A stretch of DNA of 64,000 bases from Bacteroidaceae bacterium (GTDB lineage Bacteria > Bacteroidota > Bacteroidia > Bacteroidales > Bacteroidaceae). The stretch spans positions 1-64,000 of the forward strand of contig JAFSPM010000036.1 in the NCBI GenBank assembly GCA_017442855.1. The letters run 5' to 3'. Both the position numbers and the translations under genes were made by a program. The notes beneath the pieces are model-generated. The model worked only from the letters and a program-made list of their open reading frames with translations, made no database searches and was not told where the DNA came from. How positions within the stretch are numbered: the stretch's first letter is position 1; each line of letters begins with the position of its first letter. Below are positions 1 through 27,295 of this stretch, one piece after another.

Positions 1-687
1 GTCCTCAGGGGCATGGATGAAAGTCAAGGTTCGTCAGGGAAAATACTACCCGTAAGGCGTGGAGATTTTCACGTGCGACGGCCTGTGGCCGCCACGACCT
101 TTACTTCCTGTAATGCCGCCATACCTTTGCCACGGGGAAGCGGATGACAGCATGAAGGGCGAAGGACAGCCCGACCGTACGGGACACGATGTACGGGGAA
201 TCCCTGATCTGTCCGGATAGGGGAAGTTTCCGGTCAAGGGGGGGGTGAGACAGCAGGGAAAGTAACGTCTGGTTGCTTTCCGGAAATGGAAGTGTGTCCG
301 GATGAATTGAGTGGCGACACAGAACCAGAAGTGGCCATGGAGTATGGCGACACAAGGCAGGGCACATCACAGTCATCTTTGGCGAAGCAGCACGTCAGTG
401 CGCCTCAGAGTGGAAGTGACCGTGATATGACCGCCTGCCGGGCGTGGTACGGAATAGCCACGTATGAGTACGCCTTGGAGTGGCGAATATTCATGGAGAA
501 GCCATTTGAAGCGTGGAAGGAGCGTGGGAAAAAAGCATGGCACGAACAAAGTGAGCGTCTTGCTTGCGGGATATAAGCGAAGTGTGTCCTTTTTCTGAGA
601 TGACTTTGGGGAATCCCTGAAAAAGGACTCTCTTCGCTGATATATCATTGAAAGACATTGATGCTGGAAGCCAACCTTCTGTGCCTG
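1..687. other. Left-edge stretch without a supported gene
   Basis: Short open frames exist on both strands, but none has a signal peptide, recognisable motif, good start context or conserved-looking composition, and several overlap each other. The only frame with some protein-like character is on the minus strand at about 46-237, with a Gly/Arg-rich end (GSKGRGGHRPSHVKI); I cannot assign it. The DGR-bearing element presumably continues to the left of the window. No attachment-site copy of the ssrA 3' end is visible here. Confidence 0.5.
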
Positions 688-1641
688 TCAGATTGCTGGC
701 AGTTCCTCAACGTAGTCTTTCAGGGCTTTCATCAGTCTGTCGAATTCTTCAGACTGGGGTATTCTTGCGATTGTTCCTATCTTTTTCTGGATTTCTTTCA
801 AAGCCGATGAGTCGGTGTGGGCTTTGAGGAATAGACGCCAGTTGTCGGCGGGTATCCCCAAAATGTCTGTAGAGAGGGTTTCCTTAACGAAGTCAGACAT
901 GACACCAGTACGTGCAAGTCGTCCGAAATTGTTGCCTCCATCATTGACGGGCTTATAGTTTGTCTTGTCACGGGCATTCACCATATATGGTTTTATGCCA
1001 GCTGGTATTTCCAAACCACGTTGTTCAAGTGTCAAGGGTTTTTCAGTAGCACGTTCATAAAGCCAATATCGCTTAGTGGCTTCTGCAGCTGCCTTGGCTG
1101 AGTACACCCAAGGTGTGGCAAATACGGGGTGTCCGCAGACAGCATTGCTGAGATACCAAGGGATTATGCTGAGCAAGTCACCGTAATCGCAAGCTTCCGC
1201 TGCCGTGCGATAGCGGAACGAAGGTTCACCCTCTTTCGAAAGGATGAACCAGCTTTTCAGTTCGATGCCAAGAAGAATGTCTTTGCGCCCATTTTTCCTA
1301 ATTAGCCCTACGTGTCCGATGCCCTTGTTCCAAACAAACGTCTGCTCATAGTTCCAGCCATTGACTTCAAGATAAGGATGCATTCGCGCCCATCCAAGTT
1401 CCGTTCCCCAAAACCAAAGCGTTGTGTCAGGCATGGCGTATTTCGACCATTCTGCGACATGCGGTGCATATACTTCCGGCAATAGTTTCGTGTCTTTCGG
1501 GTCGCCGGGGAAGCCGCCGATGCCATACGGCCCGTCGACAAAGATGACCGTAGGCCTGGGCCAACGGGCATAGCAGTCCAGCGAGTTCCTGTTTTCAAGG
1601 ATAATCTGGATATTTCCTGACAATTGCGCGAATGTTTCCAT
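688..1641 (-). CDS. Putative DNA methyltransferase-like protein next to the DGR
   Basis: A protein of 317 aa from the preferred start. Near the N-terminus it carries DGPYGIGGFPGD, resembling the catalytic (D/N)PPY region of N4/N6 amino-methyltransferases but with Gly in place of the first Pro. A block TTLWFWGTELGW and then WNKGIGH follow, as in some type II methyltransferase-like proteins. A clear FxGxG SAM motif was not found, so activity is unproven. The frame stays open up to 1713, but a TATATTTG -7 promoter box at 1670-1677 would lie inside that longer version, so the ATG at 1641 is chosen. It is the last gene after the reverse transcriptase in the same direction, separated by about 90 bp with its own promoter-like box. 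It may be element cargo protecting DNA, or an unrelated restriction-modification relic. Confidence 0.45.
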   Translation of the reverse strand: METFAQLSGNIQIILENRNSLDCYARWPRPTVIFVDGPYGIGGFPGDPKDTKLLPEVYAPHVAEWSKYAMPDTTLWFWGTELGWARMHPYLEVNGWNYEQTFVWNKGIGHVGLIRKNGRKDILLGIELKSWFILSKEGEPSFRYRTAAEACDYGDLLSIIPWYLSNAVCGHPVFATPWVYSAKAAAEATKRYWLYERATEKPLTLEQRGLEIPAGIKPYMVNARDKTNYKPVNDGGNNFGRLARTGVMSDFVKETLSTDILGIPADNWRLFLKAHTDSSALKEIQKKIGTIARIPQSEEFDRLMKALKDYVEELPAI

Positions 1642-1669
1642 TTTTATGACGTTTTGCCTTTTCTCGCTG

Positions 1670-1677
1670 CAAATATA
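1670..1677 (-). promoter_or_regulatory. -7 promoter box (TATATTTG)
   Basis: Read on the minus strand this is TATATTTGC, matching the Bacteroidales -7 consensus TAnnTTTG, about 30 bp before the ATG at 1641. No TTTG lies 19-20 bp upstream, so only half the promoter is supported. It argues for the shorter start of the methyltransferase-like gene. Confidence 0.4.
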
Positions 1678-1734
1678 AGCATAAAAATCGAGAATGTTTC
1701 CTTTTATGGCCAAACATTCCGTTTAGGAGTTTAT

Positions 1735-3039
1735 TTATAGGGATGCTGCCGGCGGGAAGGGTGCGTATGGGTCATCAAGGTAGGACAGCATGTCATCGTC
1801 ACGGAATGGTATGTAAAGCAGGGATGACGGCAACTTCCCTCCGTATTCGGGCCTGATTATGGCCCTCTGGAAGTGCTTGTCGAATATGAAGTATTTGTAG
1901 AAGGCCGGCCGTGACACATACTCCATTCTGAGGTTGAACGAGCTGTAGTGGGATAGCAAGCCGAGGTATGAGTTTATCCTTGACCGTATGGTGAGCAGGT
2001 CCTCTGCCGTGACTTCCGGCATGAAGAGCTGCCTTTCTATCTCCTGCATGACGCAGCAGAACTTGTTGATGGTCCGCTGCCTTGGCACGGTGTAGTATGG
2101 CCGTATGTACGCACCGAGGTACTGGTTGGCCGCTGTGGCGGGCAACAGCCTGAACTTGTCATGGTTTACCTTGACGTGCACCTCTTCGGTGAGGAAGCTC
2201 TCCATCCTCGGCAGCATGTACAGCAGGAATTCCTTGTCCTGGTGCATGTGGTACAGGTCATCGACATAGTGTCCGTAGTGTTTCATCTTAAGGGTTCTCT
2301 TGACCCATTGGTCGTAGATATTGAGCAACACGTTGGAGAACAGCTGCGATCCTATGTCTCCGATGACTATGCCGTATCCCTCCGGGCTGTACCTCAAGCT
2401 TTTCCTCTTCGGCAATCCGTCCCAGTTATGCGGATCGCCCAGTATGATGGCGTCCTTGGACGGGTTGCGGTCCAGAAAGCAGTGGAGCAGGTAACTGACG
2501 AAATCGGGGTCTATCCTTTCCCTCCACTTGCGGCCGTCAGGGGAGCGTCTGTCGTAGTGTGATATCACTGTGTCCATGATCGTGTCTATCACGAGCATCT
2601 TGTCAATAGACATGAAGTATCCCGAGAGGTCGATGTACAGCAGCCATGCCTCCTGGGTGAAGTTGTTGGTCACCGACCTCAGGTGGTGCTGGTAGCGTTC
2701 TACGCCGAAGAGGGTGCCCTTGCCCTTCCGGCAGGAATAGGTGTCATAGATGTAGAGCGTCTCGAAGAGAGGTGCGAGGTAGTTGTATAGCATGTGCTGC
2801 ACGACCCTGTCCCTGAACTGTGAAGCGTATACCTCCCGCTGTACGGGGTCGAAGGTGATGAACGAGTACGCCGGCAGTGGTCGGTATGTCCGTGTAAGCA
2901 GGTAGTAGTATATCTTCTCGATTTCACGTTCGAGTACGATCTCGAAGGAGAGCTGGGCCAGCGTGTTGCGCTTGTTGGCCCTGGCGTCGAAGTAAGCCTG
3001 GTACAGGTCTTCCCTTATTTGCGTGGCGGTGATGACCAT
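1735..3039 (-). CDS. DGR reverse transcriptase
   Basis: 434 aa from the chosen ATG at 3039. It copies the TR RNA into adenine-mutated cDNA that replaces the VR. Visible motifs: YIDLSGYF (about residues 135-142, motif A with a catalytic Asp), IGDIGSQ (226-232, the (I/L/V)GxxxSQ signature that separates DGR enzymes from group II intron and retroviral RTs) and YVDD (258-261, catalytic). The length fits DGR RTs. The N-terminus begins MVITATQIREDLYQAY, which looks like the normal family start. An in-frame ATG at 3093 would make the gene overlap the end of the TR and is less likely. The TR sits 48 bp upstream and the accessory genes lie before it, the usual DGR order. No missing catalytic residue is seen, so the enzyme looks functional. 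Confidence 0.96.
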   Translation of the reverse strand: MVITATQIREDLYQAYFDARANKRNTLAQLSFEIVLEREIEKIYYYLLTRTYRPLPAYSFITFDPVQREVYASQFRDRVVQHMLYNYLAPLFETLYIYDTYSCRKGKGTLFGVERYQHHLRSVTNNFTQEAWLLYIDLSGYFMSIDKMLVIDTIMDTVISHYDRRSPDGRKWRERIDPDFVSYLLHCFLDRNPSKDAIILGDPHNWDGLPKRKSLRYSPEGYGIVIGDIGSQLFSNVLLNIYDQWVKRTLKMKHYGHYVDDLYHMHQDKEFLLYMLPRMESFLTEEVHVKVNHDKFRLLPATAANQYLGAYIRPYYTVPRQRTINKFCCVMQEIERQLFMPEVTAEDLLTIRSRINSYLGLLSHYSSFNLRMEYVSRPAFYKYFIFDKHFQRAIIRPEYGGKLPSSLLYIPFRDDDMLSYLDDPYAPFPPAASL

Positions 3040-3087
3040 GGCCAGGATTCTTGTAGTTGGGAAAGCTTGGCGGAAGGGTTGTAAATG

Positions 3088-3274
3088 CTTCAAGGACAGG
3101 CCGCACCGTTAACCCGTTAGCACGGTTGTTGTTGTTCCAGTTGAAGTTGGACGAATTCATGTTCATGTTGTGTCCGTTACTTCCACTGTTCGGTGATGAC
3201 GACCAGAAGTTACCGTTCGAGCCTACGTTGTTGAGAGCGCCTGAATTGTTGTTGCGGTTCCCAGCAGCGGGGAA
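3088..3274 (-). repeat. DGR template repeat (TR)
   Basis: 187 bp aligning without gaps to 4706-4892, with 20 mismatches. 19 mismatches fall where the coding (minus) strand of the TR has A: 12 A-to-T, 5 A-to-G and 2 A-to-C. The exception is position 3164 (G in the TR, T in the VR on the coding strand). About 55 adenines are available, mostly in AAC/AAT codons, so the virtual translation is Asn-rich (NRNNNSG, NWNNNNRAN). Homology stops sharply at both ends. The TR lies between the Avd-like gene and the RT and is not expected to be translated. Confidence 0.97.
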
Positions 3275-3344
3275 TCTTGTGGCCTCTTTGCTGAATGCAC
3301 CACGGGGATGTCCTTGTCGTTCGGGCATGACCGCCATGCAGACT

Positions 3345-3415
3345 GGTCCGTTCCTTTTGCGGGGTTTCTCCCCGTACGGACCTTGTTGCCATAACCTGAA
3401 GAGAATGTCTTCAGG
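3345..3415 (-). other. Stem-loop region between the Avd-like gene and TR
   Basis: Three inverted repeats in 71 bp. GGTCCGT (3345-3351) pairs with ACGGACC (3376-3382) and encloses CGGGG (3360-3364) with CCCCG (3370-3374). CCTGAAG (3395-3401) pairs with CTTCAGG (3409-3415). The region is non-coding and directly 5' of the TR in the transcript. DGR template RNAs are known to need structured flanks for priming and RT-Avd binding; the role here is inferred. Confidence 0.5.
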
Positions 3416-3428
3416 TGTGCCACTGAAT

Positions 3429-3938
3429 TTACGGGACCTCTGCCGGCTGGTTCGTGACCCCGGCATTCTCTCCCATGCCCAGTCCGCCATCGCTTTCCTC
3501 TTGGGGTGCTCTTATCTGTGCCCCGTTCTGTATCTTTCTCTCATAGTCCCTGCACCATCCTGCCAGCTGGCGCACGAGGTTATCGGAGTGCTGGCTGATG
3601 AATGCGAAGCTTTTGTTGTCAAGTGCTCCTATGTCTTTCATGCAGCGCAGCAGTATCTGCACCTTTACCGCCATTTCCACTGCTATGGTAAGTGATTCCG
3701 ATGTCCATAGCCCGTATTTTGCCTCCACAATCTTCACCATGACGGTCACGAGTGCCTCCTTGACCTCGCGTGCCTGTGCCTTTGCGCATGCGTCCACCTT
3801 TAGCCGTACGTTGCATTCCTTGTAGCAGTCCATGGCCTTCTTGTATGCCGGTACGTGCTCGTAGGGCAGTGGTTCGATATATGGTACGGGTCTCTTACCC
3901 CTCTTCCTTTTCTTCTTTATGGTGACGTCTTCTTCCAT
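3429..3938 (-). CDS. Avd-like DGR accessory protein
   Basis: 169 aa. After a basic N-terminus (KKKRKRGKRPVPYIEP) the protein is almost wholly amphipathic helix to about residue 140, then a Gly/Pro-rich tail. This fits a small helical-bundle protein like Avd, which binds the RT and template RNA and is needed for mutagenic retrohoming. The assignment rests on position (directly upstream of TR and RT), size, basic charge and helical character; I see no diagnostic motif. It starts 1 bp after the stop of the preceding accessory gene, so the two are probably translationally coupled. It could instead be a different nucleic-acid-binding helper. Confidence 0.6.
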   Translation of the reverse strand: MEEDVTIKKKRKRGKRPVPYIEPLPYEHVPAYKKAMDCYKECNVRLKVDACAKAQAREVKEALVTVMVKIVEAKYGLWTSESLTIAVEMAVKVQILLRCMKDIGALDNKSFAFISQHSDNLVRQLAGWCRDYERKIQNGAQIRAPQEESDGGLGMGENAGVTNQPAEVP

Positions 3939-3939
3939 G

Positions 3940-4536
3940 TCATGTCATTTTGCTGTTTATGAGCTTCTGCATCTCGTTGAGCGAGCTGATCGCCTCCATG
4001 GGTGTCATGGAGGCAATGTTCATGCTGCGTATCTTGCGTACGCAGTACATGGCTGCCTCGCTGACCTCTTGTCGCAACTCGCCGTAGTGTTGCATGGTGT
4101 CCTTCTGGAATTGTGCCGTCCTCTCCTTTTGCTTTGCATGTTGTTGCTGCCAGGCTGTCCCAGTCTTGGTTTCGCCGTCCTTCGCGGGCCCGTGGCTTTC
4201 CTTTTGCCCTGCGAGGTAGAGCATTTCCTTCCTCCATTGCCGGTAGTCGTCCATGTCCACTGGCTCGAATAGCTTCACGGTGGTGCAGTCCCCGTCGCTG
4301 AGGATTATCCCCACCTTGGAGAGCAGGCTGGTTTTCTGGCTGGTGTGGAAACCGAGCGTAAGGTATGGTTCGCGCAAGGCCTTCACCCTGCGCACCATTA
4401 CCTTGAACTTGCTGATTCTTGTATGGAACACGTAAGCAGACTTCTCGTACACCGTCGTGAAAAGGCCTCCGTCATTGAAGGCCGTTAAGGTGCCAAGGTC
4501 GTCATTGTCCTGCTGAATTCTTTGTGCAACCGTCAT
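3940..4536 (-). CDS. DGR accessory protein with MutS-domain-I-like N-terminus (MSL type)
   Basis: 198 aa. The first ~100 residues, around GLFTTVYEKSAYVFHTRI and then LTLGFHTSQ, resemble the mismatch-reading N-terminal domain of MutS (order: shape of the molecule, small residue, phosphate-side loop), a domain reported among DGR accessory proteins beside Avd and HRDC. The second half (about 110-198) is Gln/Lys-rich and predicted helical. It lies 164 bp after the variable gene and couples to the Avd-like gene. Its role is inferred: it may bind mispaired or hybrid nucleic acid during cDNA transfer. The similarity is by eye, so a structure prediction is the decisive test. Confidence 0.5.
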   Translation of the reverse strand: MTVAQRIQQDNDDLGTLTAFNDGGLFTTVYEKSAYVFHTRISKFKVMVRRVKALREPYLTLGFHTSQKTSLLSKVGIILSDGDCTTVKLFEPVDMDDYRQWRKEMLYLAGQKESHGPAKDGETKTGTAWQQQHAKQKERTAQFQKDTMQHYGELRQEVSEAAMYCVRKIRSMNIASMTPMEAISSLNEMQKLINSKMT

Positions 4537-4644
4537 TGTCCGCTTTTTTTCCCTGAGTTATACATTTTAGTTATTAAAAACACTTTTTATCAACCTTTAC
4601 CCGACTCATGGCAGTGCGGGTGGGTAAGCCCGGCTCCGCCGTGC

Positions 4645-4674
4645 GACGGCCAGCGAAAAAGAACGCTGACCGTC
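4645..4674 (-). promoter_or_regulatory. Hairpin just downstream of VR
   Basis: GACGG-C-CAGCG (4645-4655) and CGCTG-A-CCGTC (4664-4674) form an 11-position stem with one C/A mismatch and an 8-nt loop. It starts about 31 bp past the VR end and 26 bp past the stop codon of the variable gene. Target-side hairpins just after the VR promote retrohoming in the Bordetella phage DGR. Alternatively it is a weak terminator, although no clean T-run follows. Confidence 0.5.
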
Positions 4675-4700
4675 AATGGAACGGGTAAATGGTAATGATT

Positions 4701-6980
4701 CTATTCTTCAAGGACAGGCCGCACCGTTAACCCGTAAGCACGGAGGTAGCTGTCCCAGTAGAAGCCGGACGAATTCATGTAAATGTTGGGTCCGTAACTT
4801 CCACTGTACGGTGATGACGACCAGAAGTAACCGTTCGAGCCTACGTAGCTGAGAGCGCCTGAATTGTTGTAGCGGAACCCAGCAGCGGGGAAATACATTT
4901 TGGGGAATGTTTTAGTCCAGATACGTCCCTTCTGCAGTGACTCGGTGTCCCAGTGGTTGCTCCCGTCCGATCCGTCATTGCTGCTGCCCTTGGTCATATA
5001 GTACCATATGTTGGATGACGGTACGCAGAAGCCAGGAGGGCATGGGTCGTATATGGTCTTCACCGTTGCCGTCGATATGTTGCCGGTAGAGTGCTGTGTA
5101 GCGTCCCACAGGTTGTATGCCGCTGTGTTGTACGGTCCGTACTGAGCCGACGAACCCGATGTGTTGTTGTAGAAATGGGTGGTCGGGTTCTTTATTCCGT
5201 CGGCTATCGTTATGCCGTCGTCTGTGAATTCAGAGAATATGAGTCCCGTCGTTGCCGTCCCTGATATGTCGTACACGGTAAGGTTTGTATTGCCCGTACC
5301 TATGGAAGGTATTTCAGGATCCTTTCTCGAATACTGGTAGTATGGTGACCTTCCCACGGAGATTGGGTAGTATTCCTTGGTGGGCTGGATACTAACCTCG
5401 AAGGTCTGCTCCACGCCCGTTTCGCCCGTAGGCGTCATCTTCACGCGGCATGTGCCGCCGTTGTACACGTCCTCTCTCAGGTTACCCACCCATCCCAGGT
5501 TTACGGGGGTGAGCTGGTAGGAATGTGCCGACCCGATGGTTGCCAGTGCAGCGTCCGAGTACAGGTCCGGGCATACCCATATGTGCCATGACCACACCAC
5601 CACTCCTGATTTCTTTGCGGCTATTACGGCGTTGCCCATCGGTGCCCCCGCCTTTACGGTGAATGTCAGGTAATCGCCGCTGATGCCAACGGCGGAAATT
5701 ATTCCCGTATTGTCCTGCCACAGCAGTTCTGCCGCGTCGGGTGTTGCCGAGTTGTTCTTCAGCCACGGGTCTGTTATGGCCGCACCTGTATGGTTGACGA
5801 ATGCCGACAGGTAGGTAGGCGACTCATAGCCTCCCGGAGCATATGCCACGGTGTTGGCGGCACCGTCCTTTATGGCGTTGCCGTACACCAGCGGGATCTT
5901 GTAAGTGCCGCTCATGTGCACCATGTAGCTGTTGGCCGTCGTGCGTCCCGAGGCGTTGGCGTTTCCCGACACGTCCACCATTGACAAGTCTATGTCGGAT
6001 GCTCCTGCCGGTGCCGTCCATCCTGAGATGTTGGTCGTGCTTGAGCGTGTCATGGAGAGCTGGAGGCTCTTGTTCGTCTCTCCCGAGTCCGTTATGCTCA
6101 GCCATGACGGTAGTGCGTCATCGTAGCTCCCGTCAAGGTCGGTGTCATAGGACAGGGTGTATGTGTCCGATATCGTTGCTATTCGCGAGTAGCGGTACTT
6201 CCCGGCCGAGGCGTAGAGCGTCTGTCCTCCCACGACGGTAGGCGTAGCCGGTCTCATGATGTAGTACACAGCATCTCCGAAGGCGTATGGCAGGTTCCCG
6301 CTGAAGGTGATTTTCATGTTCAGCTTCGTTGTCGGGTCATAGTCAAAGAAGTACTTGTTGTATGAAGGTACTATCTCTGCCAGTGCCAGCTTGTGTGCCA
6401 TGGTGAAGCGCACCACGGGCAGCACCTGGTTGACGCCCCTGGCTGCCAGCAGGTCGGATGCGGTGAACGCAGCCTTGGTGCTCTGGTCCACTGCTATGGG
6501 CCATTCCTCTATGAAGTCCGCGAACTTGACGTTGCAGTCGTCGCTCGAAGGATTTGGCGCCGCTGCGCTTGCGAAGGTCAGTCCCTCCGACGTCAGGGTA
6601 GCGTTGCTCTTGTAGGGGAAGTACGCGTAATAGAACCAGTCTGGATTGAACTCCACTTCCGTTGACGGCACCCATATGCCATCTGTGTAGGTAAAGGGTA
6701 CGTTGCTTACTTCGAGCGTTGTCCCGTTCATGGCGTATAGGCCGATGACGTCTCCATCCTCGAAGCCGCTCCTGATCACATTGTTGCTGACGCTATATTC
6801 CATCCTTGTCGACGGTTCATCGTCAGCCATGATAACCTCGATTGCCAGTTTGTCGCCTCCTGTCAGCTGTCGCTGCGATTTCTGCAGCCCGCTGTCCGTT
6901 GCGAACTCGTCCGTGCATGCCGTGAGCGCGAAGGCTGCAGCCATGACGGTCATGATAGTCTTTATCAAGCTCTTTTTCAT
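4701..6980 (-). CDS. DGR-diversified fimbrillin-family lipoprotein, probable pilus tip adhesin
   Basis: 759 aa from the ATG at 6980. Frames open further upstream overlap the preceding gene and lack a signal peptide, so they are rejected. A lipoprotein signal with lipobox LTAC (Cys22) is followed by a fimbrillin/Mfa-like region (TRMEYSV, FEDGDVIGLYAMNG, YYAYFPY). The C-terminus is a FISUMP-type domain: YDPCPPGFCVPSS, then FPAAGFRYNNSGALSY and the ending LTVRPVLEE. This is the C-type-lectin-like fold typical of DGR targets. It ends a pilus operon, as tip pilins often do, and its last 62 codons are the VR. Inference: surface-displayed binding protein on a pilus tip whose ligand specificity is varied by the DGR. 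Confidence 0.93.
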   Translation of the reverse strand: MKKSLIKTIMTVMAAAFALTACTDEFATDSGLQKSQRQLTGGDKLAIEVIMADDEPSTRMEYSVSNNVIRSGFEDGDVIGLYAMNGTTLEVSNVPFTYTDGIWVPSTEVEFNPDWFYYAYFPYKSNATLTSEGLTFASAAAPNPSSDDCNVKFADFIEEWPIAVDQSTKAAFTASDLLAARGVNQVLPVVRFTMAHKLALAEIVPSYNKYFFDYDPTTKLNMKITFSGNLPYAFGDAVYYIMRPATPTVVGGQTLYASAGKYRYSRIATISDTYTLSYDTDLDGSYDDALPSWLSITDSGETNKSLQLSMTRSSTTNISGWTAPAGASDIDLSMVDVSGNANASGRTTANSYMVHMSGTYKIPLVYGNAIKDGAANTVAYAPGGYESPTYLSAFVNHTGAAITDPWLKNNSATPDAAELLWQDNTGIISAVGISGDYLTFTVKAGAPMGNAVIAAKKSGVVVWSWHIWVCPDLYSDAALATIGSAHSYQLTPVNLGWVGNLREDVYNGGTCRVKMTPTGETGVEQTFEVSIQPTKEYYPISVGRSPYYQYSRKDPEIPSIGTGNTNLTVYDISGTATTGLIFSEFTDDGITIADGIKNPTTHFYNNTSGSSAQYGPYNTAAYNLWDATQHSTGNISTATVKTIYDPCPPGFCVPSSNIWYYMTKGSSNDGSDGSNHWDTESLQKGRIWTKTFPKMYFPAAGFRYNNSGALSYVGSNGYFWSSSPYSGSYGPNIYMNSSGFYWDSYLRAYGLTVRPVLEE
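4706..4892 (-). repeat. DGR variable repeat (VR)
   Basis: The 3' end of the terminal pilus gene, the recipient of TR-derived mutations. Compared with the TR, 17 codons change, for example Asn to Tyr (9 times), Phe, Ser, Gly, Asp and Leu. The scaffold FPAAG, SGAL, VGSNG, FWSSSP, MNSS and LTVRPVLE is unchanged. The terminal 30 bp (4706-4735) matches the TR perfectly and is GC-rich, fitting an IMH-type recognition end. Confidence 0.97.
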
Positions 6981-7027
6981 ATAGCCTTGTTTTTTTATGT
7001 TAATATTGTTGTTTTCTTGCATGCCTA

Positions 7028-8077
7028 TCAGCTCTTGTCCTCCGTCCATGCGTTGATGCCTCCGCTCTGGCCTCCGTCCATTGGCTGCGGCTCTATTCCC
7101 CAGAGCGTCACGCTGCTGGTGGCATAGTCCACGTGCTGAACGTCCATCACCCACTCTGTTATTGCCATGGGGTTCTCAACGGAAATCCTCTCCGCCACGT
7201 TGATGCTCATCGCGTAGGTGTGTCCAGCCTCTATGGCAAACGCCGCGTCAGGCGAGTATGCGAAATGTTTCCTCACGCCTGCTATCTCCACCACCACGTC
7301 GAGCATCTCTGTGCCTGCGGCTATGGTCTGCGGCATCATGATGAATATGTCGTCCGTACCCGTCACGTCATAGTGTTCCATGTACGGCATGTCGGTGCCG
7401 GTATCTCCATTCAACAGCAGGGAGAATGATTTGGTCGCTGCCGAGGGTGTCCATGTTGTACCCCTGAACGTCCCTGTATACTTCATGTTCTTCATGGCGA
7501 TGGACACTAGCTTCATCTCGGTGTCCGTCGTCACGTTCCTGAACGTGAACCTGAATGCCGAGAGCCTGTGCTGGAACGCCAGCTCTATGGTTCCGTCCGC
7601 CGTCTCCGTCTGGTCTGTCACATCGGCAGTCATGAAGTCCACGTGCTGCCGCACGTCATCGGGTACGGTGAAGGTATATACGGGGAATCCCGTGTCGTCG
7701 GCGCTGCTGGTCAGCGCCAGTGCGGGGTTACCTGTGGGGTAGTACGCGTAGCAGGCGATGTATGTCCCCACGTCAGGCCATACGTAGCCTGTCGAACCGT
7801 CGGAGCCCACTGTCAGGTTGTAGAAGTGTGCTCCCTGCCGTGCCGTGGCGTAGCCGCCCGGCGAGGCGTATGTGGTGCATGACACCTTGTACTCCGTGGG
7901 TGCTTCCGTCACCACCTGTCCCCTTGTCACGGCCTCTATGTGTGCGGAGGTGAAGCTGATGGGCTTCCTGCCGCTGCCTTTCTCCTCCAGCTGCCACGGC
8001 ATGTCCTCTGAGCATCCCGTCAGGGCTGTCATGCATGCCGTCACTGCTGTCACTAGGATAAATCGCAAGGTTTTCAT
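7028..8077 (-). CDS. Fimbrillin-family lipoprotein (minor pilin)
   Basis: 349 aa. Signal peptide with lipobox LTGC (Cys22). Typical fimbrillin pattern: a PISFTSAHIEAVTRGQ strand with Arg after Thr (possible maturation-protease site), GYVWPDVGTYIACYAYYP, AFQHRLSAFRFTFRN, and a C-terminal beta-rich end with HTYAMSINV and ITEWVMD. It sits 47 bp upstream of the DGR target and 16 bp after the preceding gene, all co-directional, so it is probably co-transcribed. Likely a minor or adaptor subunit near the tip. The family call is good; the precise position in the pilus is inference. Confidence 0.8.
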   Translation of the reverse strand: MKTLRFILVTAVTACMTALTGCSEDMPWQLEEKGSGRKPISFTSAHIEAVTRGQVVTEAPTEYKVSCTTYASPGGYATARQGAHFYNLTVGSDGSTGYVWPDVGTYIACYAYYPTGNPALALTSSADDTGFPVYTFTVPDDVRQHVDFMTADVTDQTETADGTIELAFQHRLSAFRFTFRNVTTDTEMKLVSIAMKNMKYTGTFRGTTWTPSAATKSFSLLLNGDTGTDMPYMEHYDVTGTDDIFIMMPQTIAAGTEMLDVVVEIAGVRKHFAYSPDAAFAIEAGHTYAMSINVAERISVENPMAITEWVMDVQHVDYATSSVTLWGIEPQPMDGGQSGGINAWTEDKS

Positions 8078-8093
8078 GTCAGTAAGTTATTAG

Positions 8094-9146
8094 TCATTCA
8101 GTGTCTTTTCCATAGATGTCTATCTCCTCGTTCACGGTGTTCCATGGTTTTATGGTCACGTATTCAGTTTCCAGGTACTTTGCCCCGAAGGTTACGTTTA
8201 CCACGTTCGTCGATCCCTGTTCCCAGAACGTCTGTTCCGTCGTTCCCACGGGCAGTGCCTCATGTTCCTGCCCGTTGACGGTGAAGACGAACTTGACCAG
8301 TGCATGCGAGCCTTCCGTCACCTGCATGGGCATGGTGAAGAACATTACCTCGTAGGGAGAGTACTCCTCCGTCAGCACGATGGGGTTTTCCATGTCCTGC
8401 AGCTTGCCTTCCTCCAGGGCTCTTGTAGTTGCCAGTTCCTCCTCCAGAGTTTCTTTCTCTTCCTCATCCTCCGTTCCCGGTTCCACGTATTTTCTCTCGT
8501 AGAACCCCCATGCGGTGTTCTTTATGCTTCCGTCGTACATGTTCAGCAGTCCTTCCGTCGGCACCTGCATCCCGTTTCCCTCTATGCGTACGCCTGTGAG
8601 CGTGCACGGTATCTCCAGGTCAGGAGCCTTGCGGAAGCGGAAGAACACCTTGGATAGCGGTGACTTCATGTGTACTGTCGACGTCCTTGTGTATTTCGTC
8701 ACCGGTGTAGTTGTCCTTCCGTATAGGAACGTCTGGCTTTCCAGAGCGTTGATGGGCATGCTGTCCGCCCTTGCGGTGGGGCTGTAGGGGTATGCCATGT
8801 AGATGTCCATGCCGCTGTTCTCCGAGAGCAGCAGTGCCGGTTCTATCACCCATTCGCCGTTGACGTATGTCGCCATGCGGTTGTCGTTTACGCCGTCTCG
8901 CACGTCCGCAGCCCTTCCGAACAGGCTCACTTGCATCCCCGACTCCCAGTAGAAGGGGTCCGTGAACTCCCCTACCCTCAGGTTGAGCCTGAAGTCTGCG
9001 GGCAGCAGCTCCTCTATCTCGGCAGCCGTCGCTTCCTGGTATTCGTGTACGGCACCCGTAGGGTCGTCCTTGTCAGACGCGTTGCATGAGGCGAGTGCCA
9101 TCGCCATGCAGATGCAGGATGCCATCGTGATAATTCTTCTTGTCAT
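8094..9146 (-). CDS. Fimbrillin-like lipoprotein (minor pilin)
   Basis: 350 aa from the ATG at 9146 (a start two codons earlier is possible). Lipoprotein signal with LASC. The body is beta-rich with DIYMAYPYSPTARADSM and MKSPLSKVFFRFRKA, matching the YAYYP and HxLS strands of fimbrillin-type pilins. An insert rich in Glu (EEEKETLEEELATTR) at about residues 225-250 is unusual for the family and may be a surface loop. The C-terminus ends VTIKPWNTVNEEIDIYG, the usual final donor-type strand. Same operon as its neighbours, 13 bp after the DUF5119-like gene. Confidence 0.7.
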   Translation of the reverse strand: MTRRIITMASCICMAMALASCNASDKDDPTGAVHEYQEATAAEIEELLPADFRLNLRVGEFTDPFYWESGMQVSLFGRAADVRDGVNDNRMATYVNGEWVIEPALLLSENSGMDIYMAYPYSPTARADSMPINALESQTFLYGRTTTPVTKYTRTSTVHMKSPLSKVFFRFRKAPDLEIPCTLTGVRIEGNGMQVPTEGLLNMYDGSIKNTAWGFYERKYVEPGTEDEEEKETLEEELATTRALEEGKLQDMENPIVLTEEYSPYEVMFFTMPMQVTEGSHALVKFVFTVNGQEHEALPVGTTEQTFWEQGSTNVVNVTFGAKYLETEYVTIKPWNTVNEEIDIYGKDTE

Positions 9147-9159
9147 ACACATATGTTTT

Positions 9160-10047
9160 TTAGTTATATATGTTAATGTCCTCGATACCTTTCTTCCATG
9201 TCTGCCCGTCTATCTCTCCCGTTGCCTTGTCGAGCCTTAGCGTTACAGTCATGTCCTCCGCCAGCGATGATCGCAGGAACTCCGTGAGATCCGTCTGGTA
9301 TCCGCTTTCTATGCTGTCTCCCCTGAGGGTGATGAACAGGTTGTTCGCTCCATACACTCCCGGCATTGCCATCGTTGTCTGGTAGGTAGTCCTCACCGTC
9401 CCGTCCTTTTTCTCTGGCTTCTTCCTAAGTGCGGTGACGGTGTAGCTGCCCGTCTCCTCGTCCATGGGTGTCATTGAATATACGCGCATGGCCGTGGTTA
9501 TCCCCTCCAGCCTGAACGACACGTCTCCGCGGCATTCTATGGTGTCCGTGACCTCAAGGTTCAGCCTGAGTCTCTTGAGTGCCGGCCTCATGATCACGTC
9601 CGTCATTGTCTTGGTCGCCTGCAGCGACCTCGCATTGTCGGTATATCCGATGTATATCTGGTGGTCTGGCAGGTCTGTTATCGTTATGTCGCCCGTTTCC
9701 TCCTGCTGTGTCTTGAGTGTGAGTTCCACGGTGTCATATGATTCCGTCGACGTGAGCCACTCCTCGTCTTTCTCAGGCACTGCCATGTACGCGTACTTGC
9801 CTTCAGGCAGGTCCATGGTGATGTATTCCCTGTCCATCGTGTAGCTCTCGGGCGTCATCTCTTCCTTCTTAGGATACACGGTCAGCGCTATCGCTCCCGT
9901 TCCCTTTGGTCTCAGCCCCGAGTCGGTCACCACGTTCCAGTCCAGGATGACACTTACTCCGTCCGTCCAGCTCCCGCTGTCGTCCAGTGGTGAGCACGAT
10001 AGGATCGTAAGTGCCGACAGTGCTGCTATATAGAATTTTCTTTTCAT
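9160..10047 (-). CDS. DUF5119-like pilus anchor/assembly lipoprotein
   Basis: 295 aa from the ATG at 10047; the longer frame to 10086 has no signal sequence at its front. Lipobox LSC follows MKRKFYIAALSALTI. The start of the mature protein, VSVILDWNVV, and the repeated LPEGKYAYMAV and KRLRLNLEVTD strands are like DUF5119/Mfa2 (FimB)-type proteins that anchor type V pili in the outer membrane. It lies between the second fimbrillin and the minor pilins. Retention as the base anchor is inferred from the family. Confidence 0.65.
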   Translation of the reverse strand: MKRKFYIAALSALTILSCSPLDDSGSWTDGVSVILDWNVVTDSGLRPKGTGAIALTVYPKKEEMTPESYTMDREYITMDLPEGKYAYMAVPEKDEEWLTSTESYDTVELTLKTQQEETGDITITDLPDHQIYIGYTDNARSLQATKTMTDVIMRPALKRLRLNLEVTDTIECRGDVSFRLEGITTAMRVYSMTPMDEETGSYTVTALRKKPEKKDGTVRTTYQTTMAMPGVYGANNLFITLRGDSIESGYQTDLTEFLRSSLAEDMTVTLRLDKATGEIDGQTWKKGIEDINIYN

Positions 10048-10197
10048 GATTCTTGTCTTTATGTTATGTCTTGGCAATCGTGCCATTATACTGTATGTGC
10101 CATGTCATTCCATGGGCTGTGCTTCTTGCGGTATTCCGACGGGCCCGGGGAGAGGCAGGTTCGTTGTGTCCTTCCTCTCCCTTGCCTGTCAGGCATG

Positions 10198-11178
10198 TCA
10201 AGCAACCGGGGCGAGTATTCCGGTGAGGTCCACATTGTTGGTTGTCCAGTCCGTCACAGTTACCGATGACACTTCCAGGTCTGTGCCGTTCACCGTCAGG
10301 GTGAACACGTATATGTTGCCTGCGGTCACTGTTATTGGTGTCACGCCTGTCAGGAAGTTGGCGGTGGCTGTGTAGCTGTTGCCATCGAGTGTCACGCTGA
10401 AAGTGATGGCCGTCGACGCGTCTGTCTCAGGCACTGCAGTCAGGTCGATGGTGGTGGCTGCAGGTGATACGCCTGATGCCAGTGTCTCTGTTCCCGACCA
10501 TGACAGTGCGCCTCCCTTACCAGTCTTGCTGCTCAGTGCGCCTGTAGAGGCGTTCATTGTCGCAGCCGTTGCCAGGCGGTTGGATGTCACTGACAGTGCG
10601 GTCATCGTTCCTGTGCCAGGATAGGTGCCTCTCACCACGTTTACGCGTACTGCAGAGAGTGCATGGTTCATTGTCAGCGTTGCTGCCGGGCTTGCGTTGG
10701 TCACCGTTCCTGACCATCCGCCCCACATGTAGTCTGTCTTTGATGCCGCCTCCACGGGTATCGCGGTGTAGTCGTCGTAGGCCGCTGCCGAGTTGTAGGG
10801 GTAGTAGGCTGTCACCTTGCCTACTGTTGAGGACAGCAGGACGTCGGCTGCCGTGCTCCATGTGTAGACAGGCCCTGATGTCACCGCCAGCGTGTAGGGG
10901 ATGTTGTCATAGTCCTGTCCGTCGTAAGATCCCGCATCCGAGTTCTTTACCAGTGTTACGCCGATGATGTCTCCGTCGGCGAATGTCGTCCCTGTCTTGA
11001 GAGCACGTGTCTCTGCCTCTGCGATCATTGACACGTCGGCGCTGACGACGAGCTTTTCCTTGCCATTCTTGGCAATCTCCTGTCCGCTGATGTCTGCACC
11101 GTCGATGTCGTTTTGGCATGCTGCAGCCATGAATCCCGTCATGGCAAAGAACAATGTCTTAAAAAGCAATTTCTTCAT
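10198..11178 (-). CDS. Fimbrillin family protein (Mfa-like)
   Basis: 326 aa. Lipoprotein signal with AAAC (Cys21). The sequence follows the fimbrillin plan: LVVSADVSMIAEAETRAL (probable Arg cleavage site releasing the polymerising pilin), FADGDIIGVTLVKN, VGKVTAYYPYNS, TDYMWGG, LTMNHALSAVRVNV, and a final strand LEVSSVTVTDW. Very rich in Ala, Thr, Ser and Val. It is similar in plan to the fimbrillin at 14122-15354, suggesting duplicated shaft subunits. There is 85 bp to the upstream OmpA-like gene and 150 bp to the anchor gene. Confidence 0.85.
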   Translation of the reverse strand: MKKLLFKTLFFAMTGFMAAACQNDIDGADISGQEIAKNGKEKLVVSADVSMIAEAETRALKTGTTFADGDIIGVTLVKNSDAGSYDGQDYDNIPYTLAVTSGPVYTWSTAADVLLSSTVGKVTAYYPYNSAAAYDDYTAIPVEAASKTDYMWGGWSGTVTNASPAATLTMNHALSAVRVNVVRGTYPGTGTMTALSVTSNRLATAATMNASTGALSSKTGKGGALSWSGTETLASGVSPAATTIDLTAVPETDASTAITFSVTLDGNSYTATANFLTGVTPITVTAGNIYVFTLTVNGTDLEVSSVTVTDWTTNNVDLTGILAPVA

Positions 11179-11263
11179 GTCTTTAAATTTTAAAGTTCAA
11201 CAAATGGGTTAACTAACTAATAACAATATAATGGCTTGATATTGCATCCGTTAATGGCGAGTC

Positions 11264-13021
11264 CTAAAACTCCATTTCCGAGAGCCTGTATGCCGTTATG
11301 AGCTTGCTTATCTCCGGGTCCAGCTCTCCCTTGTTCATCTTTGAGTAGTCCATCTGGCACGAGGAGATGAATGCGGCCACTGCCTCTTCTGTCCTGCCCA
11401 TCCTTGAGAGCAGTATTGCCTTCAGGTACTCGATGTCGGAGTTGCTCTCCTGTGCTGCCAGTATGTCGAGTGCCGCCTTGTCGTATCCCAGCGACATGTA
11501 GCATATTGCGGCATTGACATCCTTGTACTCCAGCATCTTCGGCATAGCCTCCGAGTAGCGGTGTGCGTCCATGAGCTCCAGCGCCTTCTCGTACTCGGTG
11601 TCGGGCGTGGTGGTATAGGTCACGTCCTCCACCATTCCCCTTCGTGAGAGGTGGTACACGAAGTCCACGGCCCTGAGTGCAGGGTATATGCTGTCCTTCA
11701 TGTATGTATATGATTCGGGATGCTCGTTCCTTATCCTTGCCTCACGCGCATCCTCGTCGCTTTCTTCCCTAATGATGGCCAGTATCTCCGCCTTGTCGTC
11801 CAGCCGGCTCTTTGCCAGGTGGTCCGTCAGGCTCTTCCAGTCCTCCCCCTTCTGCCGTACCTGTACCAGAGCCTCTGCCTCTGCGTTGCTCTCCAGCACG
11901 TCCCTGAGGTACTCCTTCAGTGCCTGTCCCCTGGCCTTTGACAGCTCCCTGTTGGTCAGGTATGCCCCTTCGGGTGATGAACCTGCGCTGATGATCACCG
12001 AGTCGATGACGAACTCGTTGCCGTGGTTTATCTCATTCATCTTGGCACGTACACCTGCCAGTTCCGTGGCGTTGTTGCCCAGTGTGTCTATTACCTGGTG
12101 GCTTCCCACGGGGAAGGTGATGAAGGCCTTGGTGTCTTCCGTCACCTTTCTGTAGAGTGTCTGCCTTATGTATCTGGTGCTCCTGTCGAGGTACTGTGTC
12201 ATTGACGAGAGGATGTATGTGAGCGTGTCACCTTCCGATAGGTGCTGTCTGGCATGTCCTATGTCCTCTATCGTCGCGCTGACCGTCAGTCTTAGCCTCC
12301 TTGCGAAGTCCCTTGTCATGAACTCCTGTCTGTAGTGGTATTCGAGCATCTCCCTGTTGTCGCTGATGGAGTCGAGCACCCAGTCCTTCCCTTCCATCCT
12401 CCTTGCTTCCAGGTATTCCTCGTATGCCTTCCTGAGGTCGGATTTTTCCGGTTCCCCTCCGAAGTACTCTTCCCTTTCCTTCTGTCTCTCGTCCAAGCGT
12501 GCTGCCCTAAGAAGGGCCTGTTGGCGGAACATACCTTCCCTGCCAGCTACCTGGTGGTACTGCCGTCCTGTCACCACTATGGGTCTCAGGTCGGTTTTCT
12601 CGCCGTCGTTGTCAAGCGTCGGCGTCACCGTTATCCTCCAGTCGCTCTCCAGGAACTCCTTGGGTATGGTGATGACGAACGGCAGCGTTATCACTCCGTT
12701 CCGTTCGGGCAGTACCCTTGACTTGGACACCACGGTGACCTCTCCGAGGCTCACTGCCAGCTCGTAGCTTCCCGTCACGGTGTCCAGCACTGAGGAGAGA
12801 ACAGTCTTCTCCTGTCCGTCCTTGTCGGTGAACTTTATCATCTCCGGCATTATCCCTGCGGTGTCCGTCTCCATGTTCTTCTCGCTGCTCGTGGGCTGGC
12901 GCAGGTTCACTGTCTGTCCCGAGGTGTGGTATGCCCTTGCTATCCTCTGTCCCGTCGAGCATGATATCACTGTCATGGCCATCGCTGCGACGGCCATGGC
13001 TTGTCTGGCTTTCCTCATCAT
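11264..13021 (-). CDS. OmpA-like/TPR periplasmic protein of the pilus locus
   Basis: 585 aa. Signal peptide ending ISCS, so probably a lipoprotein. N-terminal beta region (to ~170), then a charged region; residues ~300-470 contain DSVIISAGSSPEGAYLTNRELSKARGQ... of the OmpA-C peptidoglycan-binding type (the SPEG/NxxLSxxRA pattern). The C-terminal ~100 residues (YEKALELMDAHRYSEAMPKM, AICYMSLGYDKAALDIL) look like TPR helices. Related OmpA proteins with DUF3868 partners occur in Bacteroidales pilus loci, including 39828-40913 here. The start overlaps the stop of the winged-helix gene by 4 bp, indicating coupling. Likely role: linking the pilus base to peptidoglycan or supporting assembly. Confidence 0.7.
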   Translation of the reverse strand: MMRKARQAMAVAAMAMTVISCSTGQRIARAYHTSGQTVNLRQPTSSEKNMETDTAGIMPEMIKFTDKDGQEKTVLSSVLDTVTGSYELAVSLGEVTVVSKSRVLPERNGVITLPFVITIPKEFLESDWRITVTPTLDNDGEKTDLRPIVVTGRQYHQVAGREGMFRQQALLRAARLDERQKEREEYFGGEPEKSDLRKAYEEYLEARRMEGKDWVLDSISDNREMLEYHYRQEFMTRDFARRLRLTVSATIEDIGHARQHLSEGDTLTYILSSMTQYLDRSTRYIRQTLYRKVTEDTKAFITFPVGSHQVIDTLGNNATELAGVRAKMNEINHGNEFVIDSVIISAGSSPEGAYLTNRELSKARGQALKEYLRDVLESNAEAEALVQVRQKGEDWKSLTDHLAKSRLDDKAEILAIIREESDEDAREARIRNEHPESYTYMKDSIYPALRAVDFVYHLSRRGMVEDVTYTTTPDTEYEKALELMDAHRYSEAMPKMLEYKDVNAAICYMSLGYDKAALDILAAQESNSDIEYLKAILLSRMGRTEEAVAAFISSCQMDYSKMNKGELDPEISKLITAYRLSEMEF

Positions 13022-13251
13022 TCCTTCGTTACGCTGACCGTGAGGTCAAAGCTGTTATTAAAGTAATAGGTGTTCTTTATACGGTCGAATCGTAGGTCGG
13101 CCTCCATATCCCTTAGCATGTCGAATTGCCTGTTCAGCGTTGCCAGGTTTGTCCTCAGCTCCTGTGATAGGGTGGCCTGCGTCCCGGTGCCGCCTTTCTT
13201 TATGCGTTTCACCAGTTCTTGGAGTTTCAACATTTTATCAACGTAGTTCAT
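13018..13251 (-). CDS. Small winged-helix DNA-binding protein
   Basis: 77 aa. The pattern YVDKMLKLQELVKRIKKGGTGT, then LSQELRTNLATLNRQFDMLRD and FDRIKNTYYFNN, matches the small Bacteroidales winged-helix proteins (HTH_11/DeoR-like: one recognition helix, then a beta wing with YYF). It overlaps the OmpA-like gene by 4 bp and follows the DUF3575 gene by 50 bp, so it is inside the pilus operon. A regulator embedded among structural genes could autoregulate pilus or DGR expression; that is inference. Confidence 0.65.
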   Translation of the reverse strand: MNYVDKMLKLQELVKRIKKGGTGTQATLSQELRTNLATLNRQFDMLRDMEADLRFDRIKNTYYFNNSFDLTVSVTKE

Positions 13252-13301
13252 GGTGTATTCTTTTTAGAATAAATGAATATTCGCCTCCCTCCATGATGAT
13301 G

Positions 13302-13874
13302 TCATTTCAGGAACCATACAAGGCTTACGTCTGCCCTGAGGGGCAGGAACCGCAGTCCCTTTTCCTTCGAGTATTTCCTGGAGTGGCTTTCCCATGAGCA
13401 TTTGTCATAGTTGGCATATACCGGTCCAACCATCCCTTCCACCTCCAGGTTGAGTCTTTTCGAGAGGATCCATGCGTATCCCCCTCCTGTCCCCAGCCCG
13501 TAGTATCGTCCGTCATAGCGGTATTTATGGTTGAACCATCCGCCTACATGGAAGCGCGAGAGCACTACGGCTCCGGAAGCGAACCACCCGACGTTGGCCT
13601 TCTTCACCCAGTATCGTGCGCCTGGCTGTATGGTAACCTGCTGGAAACGTGAATTTTCCTTGAATATCCAAGGGTTGTAATAGAACGGGAAGTGCAGCGT
13701 GACATGTTCTCCTGCCTTGTAGCTGACTTCTATGTTGGGTGTGAGTGTTGCCCACATGGTCATGCTTGTCCTCAGTCCTATCTTCTGCGCTCCTGCAGGT
13801 AGGGACATGGCCATCATTATAACGAATGCGACCGCCAGCATGGCTGTGTGATATTTTTTGTTCTTGATGTCCAT
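13302..13874 (-). CDS. DUF3575 outer-membrane barrel-like protein
   Basis: 190 aa from the ATG at 13874 (an alternative ATG at 13880; longer frames have no signal). Cleavable signal peptide ending PAGAQ. Alternating beta-strand segments start with SMTMWATLTPNIEVSYK and include FPFYYNPWIF, RYWVKKANVGWFASG, GGGYAWILSKRLNLEVEG and a final aromatic LVWFLK, as in small outer-membrane barrels. DUF3575 genes accompany OmpA/DUF3868 genes at Bacteroidales pilus loci, and a paralogue occurs at 40910-41497. Presumed part of the pilus secretion or anchoring machinery. Confidence 0.75.
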   Translation of the reverse strand: MDIKNKKYHTAMLAVAFVIMMAMSLPAGAQKIGLRTSMTMWATLTPNIEVSYKAGEHVTLHFPFYYNPWIFKENSRFQQVTIQPGARYWVKKANVGWFASGAVVLSRFHVGGWFNHKYRYDGRYYGLGTGGGYAWILSKRLNLEVEGMVGPVYANYDKCSWESHSRKYSKEKGLRFLPLRADVSLVWFLK

Positions 13875-14068
13875 ATACATATTTTTGTAATGGTTATTGA
13901 TTCGTTGTGTGCCTTCTGATTCTCCATCCCAAGTGCATCTTCCTGCTTTCCGGGTTTTAAGTGCCATTTGTCCCTGACGCCAGCGAAGCCGTTACATGGT
14001 GGAGAATGTCGTATAGTCTGTCAGGCGCTTGGATTGTCTTATATATAAATAAGGTGTAAGAGATAAAC

Positions 14069-14106
14069 GGCTGGGAAAGGGAGCCTTATTCTTTCCCTTC
14101 CCAGCC
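14069..14106 (-). terminator. Hairpin terminator/attenuator after the major fimbrillin
   Basis: GGCTGGGAAAGGG (14069-14081) faces CTTCCCAGCC (14097-14106) as an interrupted stem, just 15 bp past the fimbrillin stop on the minus strand, followed by GTTTATCT. Likely partial terminator that makes the first pilin more abundant than the downstream accessory genes. Confidence 0.6.
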
Positions 14107-14121
14107 GCAAGGAACGATCGA

Positions 14122-15354
14122 TTAAGGAACGATTGGATCTGGGGTCTTTATGTCACCAGAACCACCAGCTTGCTGAATCCAGTCGGTGATGGTTACGCTT
14201 GTAACTTCCAGTGCAGTACCCTTCAGTGTGAAGGTATACAGATAGTTGTTGCCAGGAACCCAGCCATTCTTCCACTCATTCACACCATCTGGGGTGATAG
14301 CTGGCAAGTCGATGGTATATACACTGCCGTCAATAGTGATGACAGCCTGCACCTCGTTAGCCAACAGACCATTGGTAGTATCTACAAATGGATACACCAG
14401 CACGCGTGCCTGCTTGTCCTGAGTATAGGCAGTCGATCCATCTGCCATGTTGCCGGTACCAACTACAGTCCCGTTCTCCACCATATTAGAGCCATTAGTA
14501 TCACGACCTGATGTTGGGGCAACAGTGATGGTATTGGCATCGTTGGCAGCTGCCCTGGTCAATGCCAGTGAGCCGTCGTTGATGTCCATTGTTGAATCAC
14601 CGGTCTTGATGACATGCTGGGTGTTTGAAGCCTTGTTTTTCAGCACGATTGAGCTCACCTGACCCAGACCTGGGTACAGTGCGTTTGCACCGTCAGCACC
14701 GGTAGCCTGCTGGAAGGTGAATGAGATCATTGCCAGTGCGTGGTTCATTGTCAGCTTTGCCTGGTGGTTGATGTCGCCAGAAGCATTAGAGAACGCATTC
14801 ACTGAGTTGCCGCCGTTCACTACTGATGCCCACATGAAGTCGGTCTGGCCGTTAGCATCAGCTGTGCCGTCACTTTGGCCGGTACCCTGGTCGGCTGCAA
14901 CAGAAACAGGGATTGCGGTAGCGTCTGTATAGCCTGTTGTCCAAGGATAATAGGCATATACCTTACCTACGGTAGTTGACAGGATGATTGGGTCAGCAGC
15001 GTCCCAAGAATAGGTGTAGGGTGGCTCAGTTCCATGCTGTGTGCGCTGGTACTTGACGTTCAGGGTTGGAGTTGTCACCGAGCCCTTCAGGTAGTTGTCT
15101 GCGCTCTGTGCAGCGCCAGAAGAGATTGAGCTGTCGAAGATGAACACGCCCACGCTTTCTGTACCGCTGAATGCGGTGCCGCTGATGCCACTACGGGTGG
15201 TTGCCTTCTCCAGGCCTATCTGTGCCACACCCAATTCTACAGGACCTACGTCCTGCTTAGCGATTTCGTTAACACTTGGCATTTCATCCTGTGAACAAGA
15301 TGCCATTGACATAGCTGCCACGGCAGCCATCACGAAGTAAAAGTTTTTCTTCAT
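14122..15354 (-). CDS. Major fimbrillin (Mfa-like shaft subunit candidate)
   Basis: 410 aa. Lipoprotein signal MKKNFYFVMAAVAAMSMASC (Cys20). Then VELGVAQIGLEKATTRSG, with Arg in the usual maturation position, ESVGVFIFDSS, VGKVYAYYPWTTG, TDFMWASV, LTMNHALAMISFTFQ, and a C-terminal LEVTSVTITDWIQQ strand. First gene of the pilus set and followed by a hairpin, as expected for the most abundant subunit. Its codon use is more AT-rich and more regular than the following GC-rich genes, suggesting either high expression or a different origin. No promoter of the TTTG/TAnnTTTG type is seen in the 45 bp to traF, so it may be read from the conjugation genes. Confidence 0.87.
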   Translation of the reverse strand: MKKNFYFVMAAVAAMSMASCSQDEMPSVNEIAKQDVGPVELGVAQIGLEKATTRSGISGTAFSGTESVGVFIFDSSISSGAAQSADNYLKGSVTTPTLNVKYQRTQHGTEPPYTYSWDAADPIILSTTVGKVYAYYPWTTGYTDATAIPVSVAADQGTGQSDGTADANGQTDFMWASVVNGGNSVNAFSNASGDINHQAKLTMNHALAMISFTFQQATGADGANALYPGLGQVSSIVLKNKASNTQHVIKTGDSTMDINDGSLALTRAAANDANTITVAPTSGRDTNGSNMVENGTVVGTGNMADGSTAYTQDKQARVLVYPFVDTTNGLLANEVQAVITIDGSVYTIDLPAITPDGVNEWKNGWVPGNNYLYTFTLKGTALEVTSVTITDWIQQAGGSGDIKTPDPIVP

Positions 15355-27279: not shown

Positions 27280-27295
27280 AAACAGTACAGTCTTT

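Follow-up and report, generated by a model that had tools for sequence, protein, structure and literature searches.

A stretch of 64,000 nucleotides at the start of contig JAFSPM010000036.1 from a Bacteroidaceae bacterium (assembly GCA_017442855.1; hereafter, the window) very probably contains a complete chromosomal diversity-generating retroelement (DGR) that ends a type V (fimbrillin) pilus operon and diversifies the C-terminus of a pilus-associated lipoprotein, probably a tip adhesin. The parts of the DGR, the adenine pattern of its repeats, a template that cannot yield stop codons, and the occurrence of the same genes in a relative can be regarded as established at the sequence level (Table 1).

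Repeats, reverse transcriptase, and accessory proteins

The template repeat (TR) and the variable repeat (VR) align on the minus strand over 187 bp without gaps, exactly at the positions given in the initial annotation. They differ at 20 positions, 19 of which are adenines in the template; these are replaced by T (12), G (5), or C (2), so that all outcomes are present, as had also been reported. The remaining difference is a G>T change. Given 55 adenines among the 187 TR positions, the probability of such confinement by chance is 9.6e-11 (hypergeometric). In the frame of the target gene, 17 VR codons differ from the TR. In 16 of these, with AAC (15) or CAC (1) in the template, an adenine is replaced, and the last one changes from ATG to ATT. 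The TR contains 18 AAC and 2 AAT codons, and none of its codons can be converted to a stop by adenine substitution. When applied to Bordetella phage BPP-1, the repeat finder recovered the annotated TR and VR coordinates exactly, with 18 of the 22 differences at A. The adenine pattern is real and not a product of chance. The presence of two similar repeats near each other could in principle reflect ordinary gene duplication or recombination, with no DGR involved; this explanation is refuted by the difference pattern (P about 1e-10) and retains next to no weight. None of 11 control imperfect repeat pairs, collected with a variant of the finder from window positions 16001-64000 and from 29 loci (L076-L104) retrieved for their homologues of the target, was adenine biased; one of these loci, L084, overlaps a DGR locus on its VR side, and the others were not checked for the absence of a reverse transcriptase (RT). 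Furthermore, the genes for RT, Avd, and MSL adjoin the repeats. A second VR was not found in the remainder of the genome, which is 80% complete.

The RTs of the DGR clade are characterized by SQ in motif 4 and a YxDD motif. The SQ and YVDD signatures pointed out initially in the window RT both line up with the respective columns of the BPP-1 RT, and the sole PDB sequence matching this RT at E<=0.001, 8ub7 (1.1e-27), has the letters of the BPP-1 RT. By these motifs and this match, the protein belongs, on sequence grounds, to the DGR clade. With a TTG start, its frame extends to position 3093.

The two genes between the target and the TR had not been identified in the initial annotation; by sequence they are assigned to known DGR accessory families, one to Avd and the other, probably, to MSL. 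In the set that includes such proteins (set A2), all 7 members matched the family phrog_3206 (Avd protein of DGR) at E<=0.1, with a best E-value of 4.8e-25 and a weak one, 0.01, for the window copy. MutS_I domain matches were obtained for 7 of 11 members of the MSL family. A phenylalanine aligned with that of the GDFYE motif in the MutS of the same genome is present in 8 of 8 MSL proteins, and the glutamate in none of the 8 aligned. Perhaps MSL binds the mismatched duplex of cDNA and VR. DGRs containing an accessory protein similar to MutS domain I have been described (MSL, PF01624; PMC10053308), and the window protein would be a further one, differing in that it is too divergent for the Pfam model.

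Table 1. Features of the DGR locus and of the adjoining pilus operon in the window
Feature	Positions	Strand	Evidence or remarks
DGR reverse transcriptase, 434 aa from ATG	1735..3039	-	PF00078 1.5e-10; phrog_1423 6e-72; 8ub7 1.1e-27
Template repeat (TR)	3088..3274	-	187 bp gapless to VR; 55 adenines; 18 AAC + 2 AAT codons
RT-7-like structured RNA (Rfam RF03028)	3272..3472	-	45.8 bits, E 3.9e-8, model 1-191 (whole)
Avd-family accessory protein, 169 aa	3429..3938	-	phrog_3206 family match; 2gsc 6e-4
MSL-type accessory protein, 198 aa	3940..4536	-	MutS domain I-like N-terminus and long helical C-terminus
Short hairpin CGGC-GGA-GCCG, weak	4631..4641	-	read by hand, after VR; resembles short hairpins of relatives
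Inverted repeat	4645..4674	-	31 nt after VR; 10 pairs + 1 mismatch, 8-nt loop
Variable repeat (VR)	4706..4892	-	19/20 differences at template A; frame ends 2 nt + stop codon beyond
Target gene, 759-aa lipoprotein	4701..6980	-	LTAC lipobox, by eye; last 62 codons but one lie in VR
Fimbrillin-like protein, upstream of target	7028..8077	-	PF13149 8.9e-22
Fimbrillin-like protein	8094..9152	-	PF13149 4.7e-10
DUF5119 protein	9160..10086	-	PF17145 1.3e-6, above cut-off
Fimbrillin-like protein, possibly stalk	10198..11178	-	PF13149 3.9e-32
Protein without family above cut-off	11264..13021	-	Pfam scan
DUF3575 protein, upstream end of gene run	13302..13967	-	PF12099 2.4e-43

The diversified lipoprotein and its pilus operon

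The target is a lipoprotein by its lipobox, with the VR at the 3' end of its gene, in agreement with the initial annotation. Its last 120 residues yielded matches to Fib_succ_major/FISUMP (E 0.0054 and 0.0039) that fall under the curated cut-offs, so that the FISUMP or C-type lectin-like end initially proposed has a match, one that for this copy is weaker than had been implied. Fib_succ_major was matched at E<=0.01 by 19 of the 30 DGR target ends scanned (that of the window and 29 of 41 listed DGR targets). Similarity of the target to TvpA (2y3c) was weak (E 0.19). The fold model of the target is good mainly at residues ~270-660, with pLDDT (predicted local distance difference test) values <50 across most of residues 1-271, and structure searches with this model were uninformative.

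The target gene is the last in a same-strand run that includes, upstream, genes for a DUF3575 protein, a protein without an assigned family, a DUF5119 protein, and three fimbrillin-like proteins; the pilus context claimed for it is borne out by these families. We associate the target with a pilus because of its position in this fimbrillin operon, and the position combined with the variable C-terminal end suggests that it forms the pilus tip.

At E<=0.001, RT matches were found in 33 of 201 genomes of the family and 50 of 158 genomes of the genus, among them weak ones that probably include non-DGR RTs. Among the best 80 of 397 relatives that were kept, the closest is a locus from a metagenome-assembled genome (MAG) of an uncultured Prevotella (L124). 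Its gene order is that of the window, with the target (49% identical), MSL (21%), Avd (35%), TR, and RT (61%), and its operon before the target includes genes for DUF3575, DUF5119, and two fimbrillins, with DUF5119 placed differently. In L124, 20 of 21 TR/VR differences are at template A. Where Asn is encoded by both templates (18 columns), the two VRs agree in 7 columns, and in the 42 other columns compared, they agree in 29; given the lower agreement at the Asn columns, it appears that similar templates gave rise to separate diversification in the two lineages.

The genome contains two other DGRs, on contigs C14 (L034) and C31 (L035), each with an RT, Avd, MSL, and a TR/VR pair, and each located after fimbrillin genes; 19 of 21 and 14 of 14 differences, respectively, are at A. 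The RT frame of C31 (L035 8521-9858) is split by an in-frame TGA and, because of this interruption, the C31 DGR may be dead or reliant on another RT. Across relatives, Mfa_like_1 was matched in 5 of 11 upstream genes scanned from the loci with MSL and Avd (group A: 20 loci, 13 with an upstream gene listed; L125 and L136 were omitted as their open reading frame (ORF) calls were implausible). In group B (26 loci, 16 with an upstream gene; 13 of these genes and two targets scanned), Mfa_like_1 was not among the 25 families listed out of 27, and two of the 15 proteins (members not named) matched Pkinase. Two loci, L154 and L161, have two VRs per DGR and targets with what look, by eye, like kinase-like N-termini.

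The DGR could be real and its target a surface lipoprotein that merely neighbors the pilus genes. The target matches no fimbrillin family, and some related DGR targets are not pilins, such as those of kinase-like appearance just mentioned. Nevertheless, we find this rather unlikely, considering that the target lies on the same strand and directly 3' of fimbrillin genes in the window, L124, L034, and L035, and that published Bacteroides DGRs are stated to diversify tip pilins (PMC12632263). Far less probable is a phage-borne DGR with an incidental pilus neighborhood. The RTs of Bacteroides phages and other phages are related to the window RT (28.6-33.9% identity; 15 of 66 records listed); however, a single-protein scan of viral contigs, the reach of which is limited to close relatives, found none, and the pilus operon of L124, the closest relative, is similar.

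The preferred reading, a pilus-associated DGR, has precedent. According to a 2025 review (PMC12632263), which cites Macadangdang et al. 2024, DGRs have a high prevalence in Bacteroides, where they diversify type V tip pilins. The suggestion in the initial annotation that the arrangement as a whole was undescribed does not survive these statements: with such DGRs in print, the one in the window is a further example of a published kind rather than a surprise. It shares with them the gut Bacteroides type of DGR, a target located among type V pilins, and a presumed variable binding domain; the comparison is drawn from statements in the review and so does not extend to accessory genes, leader RNA, or template number. 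With BPP-1, the window locus shares the SQ/YxDD signatures of the RT, Avd, a TR upstream of the RT, adenine mutagenesis, a target gene with its VR at the 3' end, and possibly a hairpin after the VR (PMC3240598). BPP-1 differs in its phage tail target and, as reported in the same work, in a 4-nt GAAA hairpin loop. In the window, the TR is separated from the ATG of the RT by 48 nt, an RNA family match is located 5' of the TR, and an MSL gene is added.

Adjacent to the RT, an ORF at window positions 688-1713 (minus strand) has, by eye, the look of a DNA methyltransferase or restriction-modification protein; it had no Pfam match, and the PADLOC model REase_II gave 0.0036.

A probable RT-7-like leader and the hairpins after the variable repeat

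A search of window positions 1-15000 with cmscan returned a single match at E<=1, to the Rfam family RT-7. This RNA overlaps the TR by 3 nt, as well as the end of the Avd gene. It resembles RF03028 in its full-length alignment, including the GUAAAUUC core, and in its position next to an RT, and differs in that its score is subthreshold and that, here and in relatives, the RNA ends at the TR of a DGR. Because the score is below the gathering score of 116.8 bits, we classify it as RT-7-like only and not as a member of RF03028. Under strict filters, RT-7 was detected in 4 of 201 genomes of the family, each time immediately 5' of a DGR TR. In the genus, 10 of 158 genomes contained 23 matches, several of these without an RT next to them. 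For the named DGR loci, the search covered the genomes of 40 of the 46 that have a TR/VR pair; RT-7 was present in 24 of the 40, and in 19 of these 24, its end is located <=12 nt from the start of the paired TR; the exceptions are L125, L128, L136, L159, and L195. Taken together, this placement indicates that the RT-7-like RNA is probably the 5' leader of the template RNA, where it would serve as a docking scaffold for RT and Avd. The structured spacer of BPP-1 that recruits RT and Avd is reported to lie 3' of the TR (PMC12875486). Our literature search turned up no paper tying RT-7 to DGRs; it did not cover Weinberg 2017, presumably the source of RT-7, and the link may already be in print. 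In one genome (L218 6395-6613, G272:C3), RT-7 is followed by an Asn-rich TR-like repeat, a possible orphan template; the sole RT match listed for this genome is a weak fragment on a different contig.

BPP-1 is reported to need a hairpin after the VR (PMC3240598). The inverted repeat that follows the VR in the window was equaled in 6 of 500 base shuffles, and nothing comparable was present 3' of the TR. Among 47 DGR loci (the window and 46 relatives), perfect stems of >=8 pairs occur within 110 nt after the VR in 17, the window not being one of these, compared with 4 of 47 after the TR, 0 of 47 before the VR, and a mean of 0.65 in shuffles. Such stems follow the VR in 15 of 31 loci with MSL and in 2 of 16 without it. 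A looser hairpin score gave 17 of 46 after the VR, 9 of 46 after the TR, and 0 of 46 in shuffled sequences (one shuffle each). Seven of the post-VR stems have the loop ATTNAAA, one with an additional A, and perfect counterparts of the window inverted repeat exist in some relatives. Read by eye, several loci (for example, L124, L125, L136, L141, and L182) have a two-hairpin module after the VR, a long stem with the ATTNAAA loop and then a short stem, often with a GNA-type loop and often followed by TCGA.

Several observations weigh against the view of the locus as a complete DGR acting on a pilus tip adhesin. One of the 20 TR/VR differences sits at a template G; the inverted repeat after the VR carries a mismatch; and the RT-7 score of 45.8 bits is far under the gathering score, with no RT-7 match at E<=0.001 in the closest relative, L124, or in 15 others of the 40. 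The whole target has no Pfam match at E<=0.1, its VR part is modeled too poorly for a lectin fold to be judged, and the window MSL matches no MutS model. Finally, the comparison covered one genome per species. The non-adenine difference, the imperfect inverted repeat, and the weak RT-7 score would fit a recently inactivated DGR, in which the VR was diversified formerly and homing has since stopped, and the split RT of C31 indicates that decay occurs in this genome. We consider such inactivity improbable, given that the RT, Avd, and MSL frames are all intact and that the TR keeps its 18 AAC codons with no possible stop.

For an active pilus-associated DGR, the mechanism would be as follows. The RT, together with Avd, would copy the template RNA, consisting of the RT-7-like leader and the TR, into cDNA; adenines would be miscopied in the process, and the cDNA would replace the homologous VR. 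The result would be new C-terminal surfaces on the pilus-associated lipoprotein, probably a tip adhesin. Present activity, tip position, and ligand binding are what we infer for it.

Template arrays in related loci

The DGR mechanism is usually described with one template, and the window locus has a single one. The C14 DGR of the same genome (L034, G000:C14) combines one VR (6274-6403) and one RT with two complete TRs (6960-7098 and 7466-7595). The two templates are distinguished by two short indels and a single base, and it is the second of them that the VR matches in register. Their leaders are near-identical to each other and unlike the RT-7 leader. Contig CANQGQ010000021.1 of an Alistipes MAG (L223/L224) carries two DGRs, one of which has five RT-7-led templates between Avd and RT (contig positions 23324-25601, ~470 bp spacing). 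Between its VR (27105-27293) and template 3 there are 9 differences, every one at template A, whereas the remaining four templates differ from the VR at 25, 26, 28, and 36 positions.

In three other MAGs (loci L105, L211, L212, L213, L216, L217), 9 of the 14 RT-7 copies that were read precede adenine-poor VR-like cassettes. These cassettes are diversified, lie in short frames, and have no target gene; they may represent stored variants or mutated templates.

The window DGR, in a single-template version, and the loci with arrays could belong to a class of Bacteroidales DGRs with a copyable module consisting of a 5' RT-7-type scaffold and a TR, the reverse of the BPP-1 polarity, and with several alternative templates per RT and target. 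Diversification in this class would proceed in two tiers, template choice followed by adenine mutagenesis. We hold the case for such a class to be evenly balanced.

The window adds a new pilus-associated DGR together with a sister locus that has a similar template and in which the VR appears to have moved separately. For the Rfam family RT-7, its placement offers a role that is concrete and can be tested, that of the 5' portion of a DGR template RNA. If confirmed, the template arrays in relatives would add an extra layer of stored variation to the DGR mechanism.

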